Part shown: in pieces, positions 12,096 to 21,001 of the stretch | Numbering within the stretch: the first letter of the stretch is position 1 | Layout of the letters: every line of letters begins with the position of its first letter | NCBI GenBank assembly: GCA_002449695.1 | Contig: DJXI01000007.1 | Span: forward strand, 23,865 to 56,294 | DNA: 32,430 bases | From: Verrucomicrobia bacterium UBA7008 | GTDB lineage: Bacteria > Verrucomicrobiota > Kiritimatiellia > RFP12 > UBA1067 | Direction: 5' to 3' | Position numbers and translations under genes: made by a program | Notes under the pieces: model-generated | The model's database searches: none | The model's input: only the letters and a program-made list of their open reading frames with translations | Told to the model about the DNA's origin: nothing

Positions 12096-12716
12096 ATGCA
12101 TACGGTTCTCACACATCCGCTGGTCAAGCACCGCGTCACGCTGATGCGCGACATCAACACCAAACCGAAGCAGTTCCGCGAGCTCGTCAACGAAATCACG
12201 GAATTCCTCGCCATCGAAAGCCTGAAGGACCTGCGCACGGTCGAAATCCCCGTCACGACGCCGGTCGCCAAGACGACGGGCGTCAAGATCGAGGACTCCA
12301 TCGTCATCGTCCCCATCCTGCGCGCCGGCATGGGCATGCTCGACGCCATGCTCCACGTCCTTCCCTACGCGAAGGTCGGCGTCCTCGGCATGCAGCGCAA
12401 CGAGGCCACGGCCGAGCCCGTGCCCTACTACGCGAAGGTCCCGCCCGCCAAGAACGACGAGATCGCCGTCGTCATCGACCCGATGCTCGCGACCGGCGGC
12501 AGCGCGTGCGACGCATTCACCCAGCTCAAGAAGCTCGGCTACCGCCGCATCGTCTTCCTCAACCTCATCGCCGCGCCCGAAGGCATCGCGAAGGTCGAGA
12601 AGGAGCATCCCGACGTGCCCGTCTTCACGGCGGCGAAGGACGAGCGGCTGAACAGCCACTTCTACATCGTCCCCGGCCTCGGCGACGCGGGCGACCGCAT
12701 CTTCGGAACGCTCTGA
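12096..12716 (+). CDS. upp: Uracil phosphoribosyltransferase
   Basis: It converts uracil and PRPP to UMP, the main uracil salvage reaction. The 206-residue protein shows VPILRAGMGMLDAML, GMQRNEATAEPVPYYAKVP, the PRPP loop DPMLATGGSA (from Asp128) and the C-terminal IVPGLGDAGDRIFGT, matching bacterial Upp along its whole length. It is first in an eleven-gene co-directional run that also holds a UraA-type uracil permease. The next gene starts 11 nt after its stop. It is probably leaderless. Confidence 0.97.
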   Translation: MHTVLTHPLVKHRVTLMRDINTKPKQFRELVNEITEFLAIESLKDLRTVEIPVTTPVAKTTGVKIEDSIVIVPILRAGMGMLDAMLHVLPYAKVGVLGMQRNEATAEPVPYYAKVPPAKNDEIAVVIDPMLATGGSACDAFTQLKKLGYRRIVFLNLIAAPEGIAKVEKEHPDVPVFTAAKDERLNSHFYIVPGLGDAGDRIFGTL

Positions 12717-12727
12717 GGCCGCGCCGC

Positions 12728-14425
12728 GTGACGTTCGCCGCCAGCAAATTCGCCCGATTCCTCCCCAGCGCGACGTTCGCGATGGCGGCGGAATACCTGA
12801 TGGGCCTGTCGGACAGCGTCATCTGCGGCCAGATCCTCGGCGAGGAGGGGCTGTCGGTCATCAACCTGATGCAGCCCGTCTTCAATGCCGTCTCGTTCGT
12901 CGCCTTGCTCGTCGGCACCGGCACGAGCGTCCTCTACGCGACGGAAATGGGGCGCTTCGACCGGCGGCGGGCGAGCGAGCTGCTGACGCAGGGGCTGTGG
13001 ACGGCGCTCCTCCTGGGCCTCGGGCTCGTCGCGACGCTCGCCTGCGTGCGCCACGGCGCCACCGCCGCGTTCGGCGTGACGGGCGGCGTGCTGGACGGCG
13101 CGCGCACGTACTGGGCCTGGTTCCTGCCGTGCGCGCTCCTCGAGTCGCTCGCGTTCTACCTTTCGAGCCTCTGCTACGCCGACGGCGACGGGCGCCTGAG
13201 CGCGTTCGCCTACGGTGCGCAGCTCGTCGGCAACTGCGCGCTGTCGGTGCCGCTGACGATGAAGTTCGGCTACGCCGGCTGCGCCGTCGGCACGACGATC
13301 GGGCACATCGCGGCGGTCGCGGTCCTGCTCCTGCACCTGCGCCGCGCGGAAAACTCGCTCGCGTTCGTGCGCCACTTCTCGCTCGCGGACTCCGGCCGCA
13401 TCTGCGTCTGCGCGCTGGGCGACGCGAGCATCCGCCTCTGCCAGGCCGTCCTGACGCTCCTTCTGAACCTCTACGTCATCGCGCGCTTCGGCGAAGGGCG
13501 TCTGCCGGTCCTCGCGGCGGTCCTGGCCGTCCTCGGCCTCAGCGAGGCGTTCGACGGCGTGGCGACGGCCGCCCAGCCGCTCGCGAGCGTCTACATCGGC
13601 GAAAGCAACGACCGCCTGACGCGCCGCATCATGCGCCTGGCCGCGCGCGTGGCGACGGCGGAAGGCATCGCGCTGACGCTCCTTCTGGCGGTCTGGCCGG
13701 GGCTCGTCACCGGCCTTGTCGGCCTGAGCGACCCGGTGCTCGTCGGCCCGGCGCAGCAGGCCGTGCGCCTCGTCGCGCTCGGGCTCGTCGGCACGGCGTT
13801 CGTGATGCTGCTCAACTCCTACTACACGTTCCGCGTGCGCGAAGGGCTGGCCGTCGGCCTGACGGCCCTGGCGACGCTGATCCTGCCGGCGGCGCTCTTT
13901 CCGGCGGCCGGCCATCTCTTCGGCGAGACGGGCGTCTGGGCGGCGCTCGCCGCGAGCCCCTACGCCGCACTCGCGCTCGTCGCGGCGTACGTGACGGCGA
14001 AGGGCGGCCGCGGCGCCTTTCCGCTCCTCCTCGACCGCGCGCGCGAACGCGCCTCGCGCGTCTACGATCTCGTGCTGGAGCCGGCGGACGTCTGCCGCGT
14101 CTCCGCCGCGCTCGGCAAGTTCCTCGCCGTGCGCCGGGGCCTGGACGAACGCAAGGCGGGCCTCACGTCGCTCCTCATCGAAGAGGCGCTGATGCTCATC
14201 CGCGAGCGCAACGCGGGGCGCCGGATCCACGCGGAGCTGACCGTGACGTGGAAGGAGGGCGTCACGATCGTCGTGCGCGACGACGGCCGGCTCTTCGACC
14301 TCACCGACGCCGATACGGCCGTCTCGTCCCTGCGCGCCTACCTCGTGTCCAATCTCATGGTCGCCATCCCCGCGCGCCGCAACATGACGACGACGGGCTT
14401 CAACCGCAACGTGTTCAAGATATGA
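12728..14425 (+). CDS. MATE-family transporter fused to a C-terminal RsbW-like (GHKL) ATPase domain
   Basis: A 565-residue fusion. Residues 1 to about 430 form a MATE/MOP-type membrane domain, with the usual opening (PSATFAMAAEYLMGLSDSVICG) and roughly twelve hydrophobic segments. This class exports drugs, metabolites or lipids in exchange for cations. The soluble tail (about 440-565) resembles the anti-sigma kinase fold of RsbW/SpoIIAB. It has IEEALML at 484-490 where the N-box lies, VRDDGRLFD around Asp518-Gly520 where the G1 box lies, and the ending TGFNRNVFKI. The N-box asparagine is not seen, so ATP-dependent kinase activity is uncertain. The start is a GTG 11 nt after upp; an ATG at 12782 would cut into the first helix. 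The stop forms an ATGA overlap with the next gene. STAS and PP2C partners are encoded just downstream. Confidence 0.82.
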   Translation: MTFAASKFARFLPSATFAMAAEYLMGLSDSVICGQILGEEGLSVINLMQPVFNAVSFVALLVGTGTSVLYATEMGRFDRRRASELLTQGLWTALLLGLGLVATLACVRHGATAAFGVTGGVLDGARTYWAWFLPCALLESLAFYLSSLCYADGDGRLSAFAYGAQLVGNCALSVPLTMKFGYAGCAVGTTIGHIAAVAVLLLHLRRAENSLAFVRHFSLADSGRICVCALGDASIRLCQAVLTLLLNLYVIARFGEGRLPVLAAVLAVLGLSEAFDGVATAAQPLASVYIGESNDRLTRRIMRLAARVATAEGIALTLLLAVWPGLVTGLVGLSDPVLVGPAQQAVRLVALGLVGTAFVMLLNSYYTFRVREGLAVGLTALATLILPAALFPAAGHLFGETGVWAALAASPYAALALVAAYVTAKGGRGAFPLLLDRARERASRVYDLVLEPADVCRVSAALGKFLAVRRGLDERKAGLTSLLIEEALMLIRERNAGRRIHAELTVTWKEGVTIVVRDDGRLFDLTDADTAVSSLRAYLVSNLMVAIPARRNMTTTGFNRNVFKI

Positions 14426-15135
14426 AGAACAGTCTCCTTCTGCTGGCGCTCGTCGCCCTCGCGGGCTGCTCCGACCGGGCGGCGCGCCCGGCCGTCGATC
14501 CGCGCATCGCCGACGCGACGCGCCCGCTCGTGTTCCTCGCGAACCCGACCGAGCCGCCGTGTACGTACCGGAACGAAGCCGGCGAGATCGTCGGCACCGA
14601 CATCGACCTCGCGCGGCGGATCGCCGCGAAGATGGGCCGCGAACTCGTCATGGAAGGCGTCGACTTCATCGACATCCTGCCGCGCCTCAAGGCGGGCACG
14701 GCGGACTTCTCGATCGCCACCATCACGATGACCGAGGCGCGGCGGCGCGACGTCGACTTTTCGGTGCCGTACGGCGAGGGCGGCGCGCGGTTCCTCTACC
14801 GGACGGACGGGAAGAGGCCGCGCCTGTCGCAGCTTATGGCGCTGCGCATCGGCATCGAGGCTGATTCCGCCCACGACATCTACCTGTGCCTGCGCGGCGG
14901 CGACCCCAAGCGCTACCTCCGGATCCAGGATGCCGTCGCCGCGCTGAAGGCCGGCGAGATCGACGCGGTGCTCTTCGACGGCATGCAGCTGACGACGCTC
15001 GCGGATGCGTCGGGCGGGACGCTCGCGGTCTCGGCCCCGCTGACGCGCGAGTTCTACGGCGTCGCGGTGGACAAGCGGCGGCCGGACGTGCTAGCGGCGG
15101 CCAACGCGGTCATCGCGGAAGGGGGCGCGCGATGA
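14422..15135 (+). CDS. Type-3 solute-binding lipoprotein (amino-acid binding-protein family)
   Basis: A 237-residue periplasmic-type binding protein, probably anchored by lipid. The signal ends in the lipobox LAGC (Cys16). The mature part shows the family features: EPPCTYRNEAGEIVGTDIDLARRIA near the start, GTADFSIATITMTEARRRDVDFSVPY in the middle, and ALKAGEIDAVLFDG later. There are no ABC permease or ATPase genes beside it. It overlaps by ATGA both the MATE fusion and the PP2C phosphatase gene. It may therefore act as a ligand sensor for the phosphatase rather than in uptake; this is inference. The ligand is unknown. Confidence 0.85.
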   Translation: MKNSLLLLALVALAGCSDRAARPAVDPRIADATRPLVFLANPTEPPCTYRNEAGEIVGTDIDLARRIAAKMGRELVMEGVDFIDILPRLKAGTADFSIATITMTEARRRDVDFSVPYGEGGARFLYRTDGKRPRLSQLMALRIGIEADSAHDIYLCLRGGDPKRYLRIQDAVAALKAGEIDAVLFDGMQLTTLADASGGTLAVSAPLTREFYGVAVDKRRPDVLAAANAVIAEGGAR

Positions 15136-16817
15136 CGGAACGGCGCAGCCTGGACCTGAAGCTCGTCCTGAGCGTGCTCGCGGCGTTCCTGCTGTCGATG
15201 GCGTTCACCTGGTTCCTCCACACGCGCCTGTCCGAGCGCGACGCCTACGCGCTCATCGACCGCACGTTCACGGCTGTCGAGGCGGAGATCATCGATTGCG
15301 TCGACGAGCGGCTCGTGCGGCTGTGCCTCGCGGTGCGCGAGCGGCTGGAGGACGACGGCTGGCCGACCGACACCGCGTCGCTGGCGGCGCTGGCGCAGGA
15401 GATGAAGATCACCGAGATCAGCGTCGCGAACGCGGCCGGCGACATCGTCGCCTCCTCGGTGACGGACTACCTCGCCGCGCCCGGCAAGCCGGCCTTCAAC
15501 TTCAAGACGGCGGGCGGCAAGGCGGAGGACATGATGTGCCTCGTGACCGGCCCGGAGACGGATTACTGCCAGCCGTTCCGCAGCAACACGGCGAACGGGG
15601 CGTGGCGCAAGTTCGTGGGCGTCTGGATGCCGTCGACCGGCGGCTTCGTGGAGATCGGCTGCGACGGCGAGTCGCTCCGGGGGCTGTCGCGCTCGTCGCT
15701 CATGGACCTGTTCCGGAACTGGCGCGTGGGCGGCGCGGGCGGCATCGTCGTGACCACGCCGTCCGGGCTCATCCTGTCGGACTACGAGGAGCCGAACCGC
15801 GAGGGCGCGTACTGGGAGGCCCCGGACGATTCGTTCTACTGGAAGCGCGAGGAGATCGAGGGCTTCCCGACGTACGTGCTGATCCCGAAGGGCTCGGCGG
15901 CGGTCCAGCGCGACGTGCTCGTCGGCGCGACGGCCGTGCTGAACGGCGCGGCGCTCGTCTTCGTCGCGCTGCTCGTCGGCTTCGTCATCTCCGCGTTCGT
16001 CCGCCGGCAGATGCGCCTGCAGGCCGCGAAGGAGCTCACGATGGCGAAGGACATCCAGCTCGCGGCGCTGCCGAACGTCTTCCCGCCGTTTCCCGGCGAG
16101 ACGCGCTTCGACATCCGCGCGTCGATGGCGACGGCGAAGGAGGTCGGCGGCGACTTCTACGACTTCTACTTCACCGGCCCCGACCGCGTCCTCTTCCTGA
16201 TCGCGGACGTCAGCGGCAAGGGTGTGCCGGCGGCCATGTTCATGATGCGCGCGAAGACGCTCATCAAGAGCATCGCGCAGACGGGCCGGCCGCTCGCGCA
16301 GGTGTTCGCGGCGGCGAACGACGCGCTCTGCGAAGGCAATTCGTCCAACACGTTCGTGACCGTCTGGGCGGGCGAGCTCAACATCGAGACGGGCCGCGTC
16401 ACGTACGTGAACGCGGGCCACAACCCGCCCGTCGTGCGCCGGGACGGCGCGGTCGCCTACCTGAAGTCGCGCCCGGCGCTCGTGCTCGGCGCGCTCGCCG
16501 GCGTCCGCTACGGCGTGGGCGAGCTCCAGCTGAAGCCGGGCGACGCGATCTACCTCTACACCGACGGCATCACCGAGCAGCCGGACGCGGTCGGCGAGCT
16601 CTACGGCGAGGCGCGGCTTCTCGCGTCGCTCGCGGGGTGCGCGGACCGTTCGGAGGAGGCCGCGCTCGACACGGTGCTCGCGGACGTGCGCCGCCACGCG
16701 GCGGGCGTCGAGCAGGCCGACGACTGCACGCAGCTCATCATCCGCTACGACGGCGACGGCGGCCGGGCGGCGGGAACGAACAACGGACAGGAAAAAGGAG
16801 ACGACCATGGAAATTAA
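15132..16817 (+). CDS. Membrane-anchored PP2C (RsbU/SpoIIE-type) serine phosphatase with extracytoplasmic sensor
   Basis: This class removes phosphate from STAS proteins in partner-switching pathways. The 561-residue protein has one membrane helix near residues 10-27, an extracytoplasmic domain of about 230 residues, and a second helix near 262-291. A short coiled linker leads into a PP2C domain opened by AKDIQLAALPNVFPPF. Metal-binding acidic residues are visible at Asp341 (GGDFYD), Asp359 (ADVSGKG), Asp478 (YTDGITE) and Asp530/Asp531 (ADDCTQ). No clear HAMP domain is seen. The start overlaps the binding-protein stop (ATGA). The final ~20 residues are Gly/Asn-rich and encoded by the ribosome-site region of the next gene, which this gene overlaps by 11 nt. 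Confidence 0.9.
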   Translation: MTERRSLDLKLVLSVLAAFLLSMAFTWFLHTRLSERDAYALIDRTFTAVEAEIIDCVDERLVRLCLAVRERLEDDGWPTDTASLAALAQEMKITEISVANAAGDIVASSVTDYLAAPGKPAFNFKTAGGKAEDMMCLVTGPETDYCQPFRSNTANGAWRKFVGVWMPSTGGFVEIGCDGESLRGLSRSSLMDLFRNWRVGGAGGIVVTTPSGLILSDYEEPNREGAYWEAPDDSFYWKREEIEGFPTYVLIPKGSAAVQRDVLVGATAVLNGAALVFVALLVGFVISAFVRRQMRLQAAKELTMAKDIQLAALPNVFPPFPGETRFDIRASMATAKEVGGDFYDFYFTGPDRVLFLIADVSGKGVPAAMFMMRAKTLIKSIAQTGRPLAQVFAAANDALCEGNSSNTFVTVWAGELNIETGRVTYVNAGHNPPVVRRDGAVAYLKSRPALVLGALAGVRYGVGELQLKPGDAIYLYTDGITEQPDAVGELYGEARLLASLAGCADRSEEAALDTVLADVRRHAAGVEQADDCTQLIIRYDGDGGRAAGTNNGQEKGDDHGN

Positions 16818-17100
16818 GACCCACACGGACGGAGCGACGCTGACGATCGCCGTCAGCGGACGCGTGGACACGGTGACGGCCCCCGAACTGGAGGCGGGCC
16901 TCAAGTTCGGCGACGCGACGCGCGTCGTGCTCGATCTCGCGGACGTGCCCTACATGAGCTCGGCGGGGCTGCGGCTGCTGCTGAGCGCCCACAAGACGAT
17001 GCTCGCAAAGGGCGGCGAGCTCCAGATCGCCCGCGTGCCGCCCGCCGTGCGCGAGGTGCTCGATCTCACCGGATTCTCCGGCATTCTCAATCTGGTTTAA
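16807..17100 (+). CDS. STAS-domain anti-sigma-factor-antagonist-like protein (RsbV/SpoIIAA type)
   Basis: A 97-residue single STAS domain. In partner switching such proteins bind an RsbW-type kinase when unphosphorylated and release it when phosphorylated on serine. The key segment DVPYMSSAGLRLLL places Ser52 where SpoIIAA Ser58 and RsbV Ser56 lie. The rest (LTIAVSGRVDTVTAPELE, VVLDLADV, VLDLTGFSGIL) fits the fold. The gene begins within the end of the phosphatase gene, behind an AAAAAGGAG ribosome site, so the pair is almost certainly co-translated. Its natural partner is probably the ATPase tail of the MATE fusion three genes upstream, since no other RsbW-like gene is in view. Confidence 0.92.
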   Translation: MEIKTHTDGATLTIAVSGRVDTVTAPELEAGLKFGDATRVVLDLADVPYMSSAGLRLLLSAHKTMLAKGGELQIARVPPAVREVLDLTGFSGILNLV

Positions 17101-17126: not shown

Positions 17127-18800
17127 ATGAGCGACATCAAGGAATCGATCAGGAAGTTTGAAGCGTCCATCCTGGAGGACGGCAAGGTCGATCGCGCCGA
17201 GACGCAGATCCTGCTCGCGTTCGCGCGTCCGCGCGCGGCGGAGAGCCCCGAGATGGCGGAGTTCGTTCAGCTCCTCGACGACGTGCTCGAGGACGGCGTC
17301 GTCACCGCGGAGGAGTCGATCCGCATCGGCGCGTACCTGAAGTGGATGACGCGCGAGGCGGAATCCGACGAGCCGGAGACGACGTTCCTCGGCCGCCTCT
17401 TCAAGCTGAAGCGCAACCGCACGACGGTCCGCACCGAGATCGTCGCGGGCGTGACGACGTTCATGACGATGGCGTACATCCTGGCCGTGAACCCGTCGAT
17501 CCTCTCGACGGCGGGCATCCCGAAGGGCGGCGTCTTCGTGGCGACGGCGGTCGCGGCGGTCGTCGGCACGCTTCTCATGGCGTTCATGTCGAACTACCCG
17601 TTCGTGCTCGCGCCGGGCATGGGGCTCAACGCCTTCCTGACGTTCGGCGTCGTGCTCGGCATGGGCTACAGCTGGCAGTTCGCGCTGCTCGCGGTCTTCG
17701 TGGAGGGACTCGTCTTCCTGGCGCTTTCGCTCACGCCGGTGCGCGAGGGCATCTTCAACGCGATCCCGATCTCGCTCAAGAAGGCGGTCGCGGCGGGCAT
17801 CGGCCTCTTCATCTGCCTCATCGCGATGAAGACGGCGGGCGTCGTCGTCGACAACCCCGCGACGCTCGTGTCGATGGTCCGGTTCAACGAGGTGCCGTTC
17901 CACACGAACGGCATCTGCGCGGTGCTGGCGCTCCTGGGCACGCTCTTCACGGCGTTCCTGCTCGTCAAGCGCCTGAAGGGCGCGATCCTCTTCGGCATCC
18001 TCTTCACGTGGGGTCTCGGCATGGCGGCGCAGGCGACGGGCCTCTACACGCCCGATCCGGCGGCGGGCTTCTACTCGCTCTATCCCGACTTCTCGGTGAA
18101 GGGCCTCGCGCAGAACTTCTCCGAATTCGGCTCGACCGTCGGCGCGCTCTTCCATGCCGACGGCTGGACGCACACCGTGAAGGGCGAGGTTGTCGGCTCC
18201 GGCTGGTCGCTCGTCACGTCGCTCGACTTCTTCGTCGTGATGTTCGCGTTCTTCTTCGTCGATCTCTTCGACACGCTCGGCACGCTGATCGGCGTGTCGA
18301 TGAAGGGCGGCTTCCTCGACAAGGACGGCAGGCTCCCGCGCATCTCGGGCGCGCTCTGCGCCGACTCGATCGCGACGAGCGTGGGCGCCGTCTTCGGCAC
18401 GTCCACCACGACGACGTTCGTCGAATCGGCCTCGGGCGTGATGGCGGGCGGCAAGACGGGCCTGACGGGCGTCACCTCCGCGGCGCTCTTCGCGGCGGCC
18501 ATCGTCTTCGCGCCGGTCTTCCTCGCGATCCCCGGCTTCGCGACGGCGCCGGCCCTGATCGTCGTCGGCTACATGATGCTCTCCTCGTGCGCGGACATCG
18601 ACTGGCGCGACGCGGGCGAGGCGGTGCCGGCGTTCCTCGCGGTGGCGGCGATGCCGTTCACCTACTCGATCTCGGACGGCATCATGTTCGGCGTCATCGC
18701 CTACACGGTCGTCAACGCGCTCGCGGGCCACTTCAAGCGCATCCACTGGATCATGTACGTCCTCACGGCCCTCTTCGTCGCCAAGTACGCGCTCATGTAA
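17127..18800 (+). CDS. AzgA-type purine permease with an N-terminal DG-motif helical domain
   Basis: A 557-residue membrane protein. From about residue 87 it follows the AzgA (adenine/guanine/hypoxanthine) permease family: FKLKRNRTTVRTEIVAGVT, MAYILAVNP, APGMGLNAFLTFGVVLG, VDLFDTLGTLIG and STTTTFVESASGVMAGG. The first ~86 residues are extra. They contain two matching motifs, EDGKVDRAE (Asp18) and EDGVVTAEE (Asp56), 38 residues apart, recalling TerB-like or EF-hand-like acidic repeats. The same domain begins the UraA-type permease two genes on. It starts 26 nt after the STAS gene with an AAGAAGGGA ribosome site. Apt, which uses adenine, follows 4 nt after the stop. Confidence 0.9.
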   Translation: MSDIKESIRKFEASILEDGKVDRAETQILLAFARPRAAESPEMAEFVQLLDDVLEDGVVTAEESIRIGAYLKWMTREAESDEPETTFLGRLFKLKRNRTTVRTEIVAGVTTFMTMAYILAVNPSILSTAGIPKGGVFVATAVAAVVGTLLMAFMSNYPFVLAPGMGLNAFLTFGVVLGMGYSWQFALLAVFVEGLVFLALSLTPVREGIFNAIPISLKKAVAAGIGLFICLIAMKTAGVVVDNPATLVSMVRFNEVPFHTNGICAVLALLGTLFTAFLLVKRLKGAILFGILFTWGLGMAAQATGLYTPDPAAGFYSLYPDFSVKGLAQNFSEFGSTVGALFHADGWTHTVKGEVVGSGWSLVTSLDFFVVMFAFFFVDLFDTLGTLIGVSMKGGFLDKDGRLPRISGALCADSIATSVGAVFGTSTTTTFVESASGVMAGGKTGLTGVTSAALFAAAIVFAPVFLAIPGFATAPALIVVGYMMLSSCADIDWRDAGEAVPAFLAVAAMPFTYSISDGIMFGVIAYTVVNALAGHFKRIHWIMYVLTALFVAKYALM

Positions 18801-18804
18801 GACC

Positions 18805-19332
18805 ATGAAAAATCTCGACAACTACGTCAAGGGCATTCCCGACTTCCCGAAGCCGGGCGTCCTCTTCCGCGACGTCACGGGGATCCTCGAATCCCCCGAC
18901 GGCTTCCAGCTCGCGCTCGACAGGGCGGTCGGCATCCTCGCCGCCGTCGAATTCGACCTCGTGGCGGCGCCCGAGTCGCGCGGCTTCATCTTCGGCGCGG
19001 CGCTCGCCGACCGCTTCCGCACGGCGTTCGTGCCGATCCGCAAGCCGGGCAAGCTCCCGCGCGAGACGATTTCGGAAACGTACGATCTCGAATACGGCCG
19101 GGCGACGCTGCACATGCACACGGACGCCGTGAAGCCCGGCCAGCGCGTCGTGATCGTCGACGACCTCCTGGCGACGGGCGGCACGGCGCTCGCGGCGGCG
19201 CGGCTCGTCGAGCGGCTCGGCGGCTCGGTCGCGAAGATGGTCTTCCCGATCGAGCTCGAGGGCTTCCGGGCGCGCGACGGGCTCCTGAAGGGCTACGACG
19301 TCGCCTCGCTCGTCAAGTATCCGGGAAAATAA
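18805..19332 (+). CDS. apt: Adenine phosphoribosyltransferase
   Basis: It converts adenine and PRPP to AMP. The 175-residue protein shows IPDFPKPGVLFRDVT, AAPESRGFIFGAALA, RKPGKLP, EYGRATLHMHTDAVKPG and the PRPP loop IVDDLLATGGTA with Asp119-Asp120. These are the standard Apt landmarks. It sits 4 nt after the AzgA-type permease gene and 28 nt before the UraA-type permease gene. This fits a unit for uptake and trapping of nucleobases. Confidence 0.96.
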   Translation: MKNLDNYVKGIPDFPKPGVLFRDVTGILESPDGFQLALDRAVGILAAVEFDLVAAPESRGFIFGAALADRFRTAFVPIRKPGKLPRETISETYDLEYGRATLHMHTDAVKPGQRVVIVDDLLATGGTALAAARLVERLGGSVAKMVFPIELEGFRARDGLLKGYDVASLVKYPGK

Positions 19333-19360: not shown

Positions 19361-21001
19361 ATGGCTACACAACAGAATGCAGACAACTGGACGCTGTCGC
19401 AGCTGATGACGGCGGCGGCGAAGTTCACGTTCGCGGACGGCAGGGCCGACCTCGACGAGACGAAGGCCCTGATCGGCCTCGTCCATCCGTTCGCCGCGAA
19501 GGACACCGACCTCGCGCTCTTCGAGAAGCTGCTGACCGGCATCGCGGAGGACGGCGTCGTCACCGCGGACGAGTCGGCCGCGCTGGCGCAGGCCATCGCC
19601 CGGCTGCGCGCCAAGTACCAGGCGGGCGACGCCGTCTACGACGCGCGCACGCTCGGACTGCCGAAGATGGCCGTCCTCGGCGTCCAGCACATGTTCGCGA
19701 TGTTCGGCGCGACGATCCTCGTGCCGATCCTCACGGGCCTCTCGCCGAGCGCGACGCTCCTCTGGGCGGGCCTGGGCACGCTCCTCTTCCATCTCGTCAC
19801 GAAGCGGATGGTGCCGGCGTTCCTCGGTTCGTCCTTCGCCTATCTCGCCGGCTACTTCGCGCTCGCCGGGATGGCCGGCGCGGCGGGCTTCGAGGACTGC
19901 GACAAGGCGAAGATGCTCCAGTACGCCTGCCTGGGCGTCGCCTCCTCCTCGCTCCTCTACTTCATCGTCGCCGGCTGCGTGAAGGCCTGCGGCGTCAAGA
20001 CGGTGATGAAGTTCTTCCCGCCCGTCGTGACGGGGCCGATCATCATCGGCATCGGGCTCGTCCTCGCGCCCGTGGCGGTGAACAGCTGCACGACCGACTG
20101 GCCCGTCGCGCTCGTCGCCATCGTGACGGTGATCGCGTTCTCGATCTTCGGGCGCGGCATGTTCCGGATCATTCCGATCCTGATGGGCGTCGTCTTCTCC
20201 TATCTCGTCGCCGTCGTCTTCGGCCGGCTCGGCCTGAGCGCGTCGATCGACTACTCGGCCGTCGCGAACGCGGCGTGGATCGGCCTGCCGGTCCGGATGG
20301 AGAACACGGTCTTCCCGCTCCTGTCGCATCCCGACTGGGGCCGGATCGTCAGCGCCGTCGCCATCGTCTTCCCGCTCGCCTTCGCGACGATCATGGAGCA
20401 TGTCGGCGACGTCTCGGCGATCAGCTCGACGGTGAAGCGCAACTTCTTCGCGCAGCCGGGCCTGCACCGCACGATGCTCGGCGACGGCCTCGCCACCTGC
20501 CTCGCCTCGCTCTTCGGCGCGCCGGCCAACACGACGTACGGCGAGAACACGGGCGTCCTGTCGCTCTCGCGCGTCTATGACCCGCGCGTCATCCGCATCG
20601 CCGCGTGCCTCGCGATCCTCGTCTCGTTCTGCCCGAAGTTCTCGGCGTTCATCGGCACGATCCCGGCGGCGACGATCGGCGGCGTGAGCTTCATCCTCTA
20701 CGGAATGATCTCCGCGGTGGGCGTGCGGAACCTCGTCGAAAGCCAGGTCGACCTCGGCAAGTCGCGCAACATGCTGATCGCCGCGCTCATCCTCGTCCTG
20801 ACGCTCGGCATCACGTTCTCGAAGGCGGGCGCGATCGCGTTCGCGGTCGGCTCGGTGAAGATCTCGCTCTCCGGCCTCGCCGTGGGCGCGCTCATGGGCA
20901 TCGTCCTCAACGCCGTGCTGCCGGGCAAGGACTTCGCCTTCTCGGAGACCGCCCCGACGATCAAGGACGCCGACCGCTTCGGCGGCAAGAAGCCGGAGTA
21001 A
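19361..21001 (+). CDS. UraA-type nucleobase permease (NCS2) with the same N-terminal DG-motif domain
   Basis: A 546-residue permease. From about residue 95 it follows the NCS2/UraA family: VLGVQHMFAMFGATILVPILTG, FLGSSFAYLAGY, EHVGDVSAISS and GAPANTTYGENTGVLSLSRVYDP. The last motif resembles uracil-specific members, and upp lies in the same gene run. Residues 1-90 are extra and carry ADGRADLDE (Asp26) and EDGVVTADE (Asp64), 38 residues apart. They align without gaps to the N-terminus of the AzgA-type permease; I count about 22 identities in 64 positions by hand. The ribosome-site leaders of the two permease genes also look alike. Substrate specificity is inferred. Confidence 0.9.
   Translation: MATQQNADNWTLSQLMTAAAKFTFADGRADLDETKALIGLVHPFAAKDTDLALFEKLLTGIAEDGVVTADESAALAQAIARLRAKYQAGDAVYDARTLGLPKMAVLGVQHMFAMFGATILVPILTGLSPSATLLWAGLGTLLFHLVTKRMVPAFLGSSFAYLAGYFALAGMAGAAGFEDCDKAKMLQYACLGVASSSLLYFIVAGCVKACGVKTVMKFFPPVVTGPIIIGIGLVLAPVAVNSCTTDWPVALVAIVTVIAFSIFGRGMFRIIPILMGVVFSYLVAVVFGRLGLSASIDYSAVANAAWIGLPVRMENTVFPLLSHPDWGRIVSAVAIVFPLAFATIMEHVGDVSAISSTVKRNFFAQPGLHRTMLGDGLATCLASLFGAPANTTYGENTGVLSLSRVYDPRVIRIAACLAILVSFCPKFSAFIGTIPAATIGGVSFILYGMISAVGVRNLVESQVDLGKSRNMLIAALILVLTLGITFSKAGAIAFAVGSVKISLSGLAVGALMGIVLNAVLPGKDFAFSETAPTIKDADRFGGKKPE

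Follow-up and report, generated by a model that had tools for sequence, protein, structure and literature searches.

What is a domain with the fold of an RsbW kinase doing at the end of a membrane transporter? The question is raised by four genes at positions 12728 to 17100 of a 32,430-nucleotide stretch of Verrucomicrobia bacterium UBA7008 DNA (contig DJXI01000007.1, positions 23,865 to 56,294; hereafter the window). They encode a MATE transporter, a binding lipoprotein, a PP2C phosphatase and a STAS protein. Partner switching is known mostly for the release of sigma factors, with a few other outputs. An earlier note on this DNA had taken the four genes for a complete partner-switching set in which the STAS protein gates the transporter by binding its RsbW-like tail. 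Our evidence partly confirms that observation and partly supports its interpretation. A better description is a transporter with an apparently kinase-dead RsbW-fold domain, set in a partner-switching cassette whose kinase domain was lost in this lineage.

The four-gene cassette

12728..14425, + strand: MATE transporter with C-terminal RsbW-fold tail, 565 amino acids, GTG start (PF01554, E 4e-18)
14422..15135, + strand: SBP_bac_3 lipoprotein, 237 amino acids, lipobox LAGC (PF00497, E 2e-24)
15132..16817, + strand: sensor PP2C/SpoIIE phosphatase, 561 amino acids, lacking the kinase domain that most relatives have at the C-terminus (PF07228, E 8e-53)
16179..16748, + strand: PP2C catalytic domain of the phosphatase, residues 350-539 (Pfam; motifs VGGDFYD, ADVSGKG, YTDG and ADD read from the sequence)
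16807..17100, + strand: STAS protein, 97 amino acids, Ser52 at the phosphorylation site (PF01740, E 6e-17)

The coordinates and the Pfam families MatE, SBP_bac_3, SpoIIE and STAS agree with the earlier note on four tightly packed genes, which overlap successively by 4, 4 and 11 nucleotides. MatE matches the transporter in two stretches, the whole-protein model resembles solved MATE structures (6fhz; Foldseek E 6e-12, 410 columns), and the GTG start is backed by a near-invariant MTFA among homologues. The lipoprotein scores 86 bits against the SBP_bac_3 profile (cut-off 26.4), and among solved structures it matches amino-acid binding proteins best. Its lipobox was read from the sequence, and so was the division of the phosphatase into membrane and extracytoplasmic parts; the PP2C motifs of the phosphatase are intact.

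The STAS protein, as had been proposed, carries Ser52 at the phosphorylation site. The serine is present in each of the 20 STAS sequences compared, that of the window among them and five from loci without phosphatase genes. We take it to occupy the position of the phosphorylated serine of SpoIIAA, Ser58.

Contig C11, which contains the window, belongs to a 2.5 Mb genome that is 82% complete. The search for sigma factor genes covered the window's own genome, where the Sigma70_r2 profile has seven matches, none of them on C11. The absence of a sigma factor gene at this locus thus stands.

The transporter tail has an RsbW fold

14033..14425, + strand: tail (residues 436-565) with RsbW/SpoIIAB fold, N-box Asn and G2 glycines missing (tail-only model and alignment)

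The RsbW/SpoIIAB fold of the MATE tail is confirmed by modelled structure and not by Pfam. An AlphaFold model of the tail alone has a GHKL/RsbW fold, and its best solved matches are RsbW-class kinases, which bears out the RsbW-like tail of the earlier note. The profile check that the note had proposed came out between yes and no: the tail alone does match HATPase_c_2 (E 0.0022, 18.5 bits), but below the gathering cut-off of 27.4 bits. Run on the entire MATE protein, Pfam reports only MatE at E<=1 and no kinase domain; we do not read this negative as absence, because both the tail alone and the search by fold pointed to the RsbW class.

Comparison of profiles points the same way. HATPase_c_2 matches 13 of 72 members of the tail family at E<=10, the best at 3e-4. 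The tail profile aligns to the profile of the relatives' kinase domain with an hhalign probability of 92 (E 6e-7), at a score of 45.2 where the best of 40 column-shuffled controls reached 22.0. Against PDB sequences RsbW is the sole match of the tail profile, at an E of 1.3 that is by itself not significant.

The tail lacks ATP-site residues

14180..14185, + strand: N-box acidic pair Glu485-Glu486, with Leu490, four residues past Glu486, where kinases have Asn (alignment to the kinase profile)
14276..14287, + strand: G1-like motif R517-D518-D519-G520 (R, D and D in 119/119, G in 118/119)
14324..14335, + strand: S533-S534-L535-R536 in place of the kinase G2 box GGLG (hhalign alignment; S534 and R536 in 119/119)
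14399..14410, + strand: C-terminal FNRN signature, residues 558-561 (N, R and N in 119/119)

Could the tail itself be the RsbW kinase of the set, phosphorylating the STAS protein and being released from or bound by it? Beyond the fold, some of its residues speak for this. In the alignment to the relatives' kinase domain Glu486 pairs with the N-box Glu, and Asp518 and Gly520 pair with the G1 box. Among 119 aligned tails (P0001 and 118 of the 120 listed matches) Glu486 is present in 116, with Asp in the other three, and Asp518 and Gly520 in 119 and 118. The remainder of the ATP site argues against it. None of the tails has Asn at position 490, which V, L, T, A, I or S occupies in all 119, and the G2 glycines are replaced by the fixed S534 and R536. 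The 11 kinase domains that we aligned all have DEIxxN, DxG and GGLG.

What the tails keep instead is a signature of their own. N495, E503, R517, D518, D519, S534, R536, N559, R560 and N561 are invariant in 119/119, and E485, E486 and G520 occur in 116 to 118. A further alignment of 20 chosen tails, one from Selenomonas ruminantium plasmid pSRC2, left out close relatives as well as L031, L059, L061 (two tails), L063, L064, L058 and L111; common to all 20 are E485, E486, N495, E503, R517, D518, G520, S534, R536, N559 and R560. In 15 more distant tails, Selenomonas included, R517, D518, G520, N559 and R560 are present in 15/15 and Asn490 in none. S534-x-R536 is absent, as a gap or another residue, in five of the 15 (L031, L059, L061 twice and L063). 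The L111 tail has W534 and the L058 tail has A495; both keep R517, D518, G520, N559 and R560. Such a shared signature suggests a selected, non-catalytic role.

Other relatives of the transporter end differently. Two are fused to a Condensation domain (PF00668; L065 1395-3884, E 5e-25, and L066 6655-9036, E 3e-35) and have no RsbW-fold tail signature by eye. Two others (L059 6568-8853 and L061 6801-9095) have a degenerate tail followed by about 220 further residues, which match GNAT very weakly in one (E 0.06) and not at all in the other.

Relatives carry the kinase on the phosphatase; this lineage has lost it

16758..16817, + strand: 19-residue end in place of the relatives' kinase domain of about 130 amino acids; deletion junction, near-identical in the sister genomes' L097 (G020) and L098 (G009)

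In relatives, the phosphatase is about 675 amino acids long and ends in a canonical HATPase_c_2 domain (E 1.2e-17 in L010) directly upstream of the STAS gene. Among the best 120 listed SpoIIE homologues, 110 are at least 660 amino acids long with PF13581; 10, the window protein included, are without the kinase. Of the 13 genus genomes with MATE-SBP-SpoIIE, 11 have the kinase domain on the phosphatase, the exceptions being the window genome and G020. No RsbW-type kinase domain was found at the window locus or elsewhere on C11. The kinase domain is thus deleted from the phosphatase in this lineage, and the set that the earlier note had called complete is not so, as the kinase is absent from the locus and the tail is without ATP-site residues.

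This also bears on the tail as the kinase of the set. No other such domain was found on C11, which would favour it. However, in relatives the same tail occurs alongside a canonical kinase domain, and the window tail regained no ATP-site residues after the kinase was lost. The missing N-box Asn, the replaced G2 box and the canonical kinase beside the tail in relatives together speak against the tail as an active kinase; we reject this explanation as very improbable. The earlier note had named relatives with a separate RsbW and sigma factor as a finding that would speak against its own reading; this is partly the case, as the RsbW-type kinase is separate from the tail.

An assembly fault was considered for the kinase loss and rejected, since the same junction occurs in three genomes and short forms recur among protein records. 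One of the three, G009, has no MATE of the family at the threshold used, yet at the start of a contig its STAS gene is preceded by this same junction without the kinase. The kinase was probably lost more than once, because the C-terminal ends of the kinase-less SpoIIE homologues differ.

The only kinase domain of this type in the window genome at E<=1e-6 is at G000:C62:9585-9956. It belongs to a sister cassette, STAS-SBP-SpoIIE.kinase, without a MATE gene. On C62 (L114 3776-9962) the export-apparatus genes Bac_export_1 and Bac_export_2, an ECF-type sigma gene and this cassette stand in a row, and it is possible that the C62 cassette is a classical counterpart with a sigma output. A second SBP-SpoIIE pair lies between upp and MATE in L010 (3613-5945). 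Its two members share 38% and 47% identity with their window counterparts, and no kinase domain was detected downstream of the pair.

Loss of the kinase may also mean that the window cassette is decaying, with its switch locked and the transporter alone of importance. In favour of this, the domain is absent in three genomes, and the 10 kinase-less proteins among the best 120 listed SpoIIE homologues, the window's included, have several different ends. Against this, the PP2C motifs are intact, Ser52 is kept, and a kinase of the type is still present on C62. Between kinase-less genomes the STAS gene has nonsynonymous divergence (dN) of 0 and 0.009 against synonymous divergence (dS) of 0.05 and 0.09, values that rest on few changes. 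The dN/dS of SpoIIE against L097 was set aside, as the two sequences seem to differ by an indel. We regard decay as rather improbable.

Linkage of the transporter to partner-switching genes

We favour, with our confidence about evenly balanced, a partner-switching cassette in which a transporter and not a sigma factor is the output and the kinase-dead tail is a receptor for the STAS protein. Besides the fold, the profile match, the missing ATP-site residues and the kinase on the relatives' phosphatase, linkage speaks for it. With full-length orthologues defined by E below 1e-250, the MATE gene was found in 21 of the 61 genus genomes searched. At 13 of these loci SBP-SpoIIE adjoins MATE, at five MATE is followed directly by STAS, at two by an NCS2 permease, and one lies at a contig end. 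Parts of the cassette are split over two contigs in G058 and G020. Two other genera of the family have MATE-SBP-SpoIIE.kinase-STAS without nucleobase genes in the stretches read (L133 and L134). Of the 13 MATE loci of the genus that are more distantly related, three lie close to partner-switch genes, in the orders STAS-kinase-MATE (L058), STAS, kinase, SpoIIE, then MATE (L111) and MATE-STAS-SBP-SpoIIE.kinase (L112). The linkage that the earlier note had wanted surveyed is therefore found again with the genes rearranged and in two further genera, but it is not universal. A kinase of the type occurs in 27/28 genomes with the MATE family and 13/33 without it (Fisher p 1.7e-6), counts that are uncorrected for kinship and come from incomplete genomes.

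That last limit is one of several points that weigh against the transporter as output. Two orthologous MATE loci are without an adjacent STAS gene. No partner-switch genes were seen near the other 10 of the 13 distantly related MATE loci, some of them on short contigs; the tail-bearing L057 and L110 have none on 19 and 14 kb. The same holds nearby at L135, from another family of the phylum, and for the Selenomonas ruminantium pSRC2 MATE, which has no partner-switch gene annotated within 8 kb. The confidence of the tail model is low over residues 520-560, the lid region included. Finally, the STAS protein of G020 is 100% identical to the window's while its MATE is only 55% identical and lies on a different contig. 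There is no sign of tail-STAS co-variation, because the MATE seems to have been exchanged while the STAS protein stayed identical, and a tight tail-STAS pair thus gains no support from co-variation.

The exchange can be followed along the DNA. Compared with the window from 12701 to about 14500, L053 (genome G020) has about 55-78% DNA identity per 100-base step over MATE and the SBP start, and about 82-100% in the flanks. The MATE gene seems to have been swapped within an otherwise conserved operon. On pSRC2 (L132 7971-11069) the MATE with the same signature has a glutamate-cysteine ligase family gene on one side and, on the other, an unnamed gene that presumably is ATP-grasp-like.

The loci without STAS also favour another explanation, in which the tail serves the stability or assembly of the transporter, the STAS protein acts elsewhere (for example on a sigma factor) and the shared neighbourhood reflects co-expression only. 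The genome does offer sigma factors as candidates, with its seven Sigma70_r2 matches, one of which lies on C62 near the sister cassette. Co-expression fits less well with a MATE gene that stays with STAS or kinase through the orders MATE-STAS, STAS-kinase-MATE and MATE-STAS-SBP-SpoIIE.kinase, or with the MATE cassettes in the two other genera that are without nucleobase genes in the stretches read. The known partners of the tail's fold, moreover, include STAS proteins. We judge a mere stability domain unlikely, though far from negligible. The transporter-gating proposal of the earlier note is accordingly retained in part: an RsbW-fold domain is linked to phosphatase and STAS genes and the transporter is a likely output, but the complete set and the tail kinase are given up.

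Neighbouring genes

12096..12716, + strand: upp, uracil phosphoribosyltransferase (PF14681, E 7e-69)
17127..18800, + strand: NCS2-type nucleobase permease a (PF00860, E 5e-31)
18805..19332, + strand: apt-like phosphoribosyltransferase (PF00156, E 4e-12)
19361..21001, + strand: NCS2-type nucleobase permease b, uracil-permease-like (PF00860, E 1e-81)

All four neighbours are found in many relatives too. Permease b matches the NCBIfam uracil permease at E 1e-83, under the family cut-off. This nucleobase-salvage neighbourhood suggests that the MATE substrate is nucleobase-related in this genus. We rejected the idea that the unit requires the nucleobase genes, as none was detected beside the MATE cassette in the stretches of L133 and L134 that were read.

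The two permeases have a similar N-terminal stretch of about 75 residues (window 17127-17400 and 19361-19650), and the apt protein of L010 (12400-12670) also bears one. Pfam names no family for it in either permease; it is presumably TerB-like. Named relatives bearing the MATE are assemblies of Kiritimatiellae, Lentisphaerae and Verrucomicrobia; the titles of two mention sheep rumen.

Discussion

How might such a cassette work? A ligand on the lipoprotein or the sensor domain would alter the activity of the membrane PP2C phosphatase. Judging from the families, the phosphatase would remove the phosphate from Ser52 of the STAS protein, and an RsbW-type kinase would put it back. In relatives such a kinase is present as the C-terminal domain of the same PP2C protein. 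Because that domain is deleted in the window lineage, either another kinase such as that on C62 would act in trans, or the STAS protein would be mostly unphosphorylated. Unphosphorylated STAS would then dock on the MATE tail, which as a receptor would open or close the transporter. If the tail is such a receptor, the sensor phosphatase would thereby set transporter activity.

Several known systems resemble this one in part. The RsbU-RsbV-RsbW and SpoIIE-SpoIIAA-SpoIIAB systems of Bacillus share a PP2C phosphatase, a phosphorylatable STAS protein and an RsbW-fold partner. In contrast to those systems, no sigma factor was found on the contig here, the RsbW-fold domain is on a transporter and without ATP-site residues, and the kinase, which relatives carry fused to the phosphatase, is missing. 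Rv1364c of M. tuberculosis, which has sensor, PP2C, GHKL kinase and antagonist in one protein, is the best solved sequence match of a relative's PP2C-kinase protein. Here the STAS protein is separate, and a second RsbW-fold domain is on the MATE transporter. A title cited in PMC7693655 speaks of loss of kinase activity in Rv1364c.

A division of labour between a binding and a phosphorylating homologue has a counterpart in M. smegmatis. According to PMC7693655, RsbW1 interacts with the antagonist RsfB, and RsfB is phosphorylated by RsbW2 only. RsbW1 is an anti-sigma factor, whereas the apparently kinase-dead domain here is part of a transporter. SiaABC of P. aeruginosa is described in PMC7647112 as a partner switch that controls biofilm formation with the diguanylate cyclase SiaD; the Sia output is an enzyme and not a transporter, and the Sia kinase is a protein of its own. 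In SLC26/SulP transporters, too, a transporter is combined with a domain from partner switching, there STAS (PMC8256260). There the STAS half is fused, while here it is the RsbW half, on a different transporter family. Judged by titles and abstract starts, we found no description of a MATE-RsbW fusion in the open-licence literature searched.

The same arrangement may reach beyond this genus. Tentatively, and with somewhat less confidence than for the cassette itself, we propose that serine phosphorylation directly gates a whole class of bacterial transporters, in which a kinase-dead RsbW domain docks a STAS protein whose state is set by a one-chain sensor phosphatase-kinase. It would extend across phyla, from the window's to that of Selenomonas. 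Because the kinase is on the phosphatase in relatives and lost here, the kinase and receptor roles can be separated experimentally. If our reading is true, partner switching would extend to the direct control of membrane transport, and the MATE tail would show clearly how a kinase can become a receptor.

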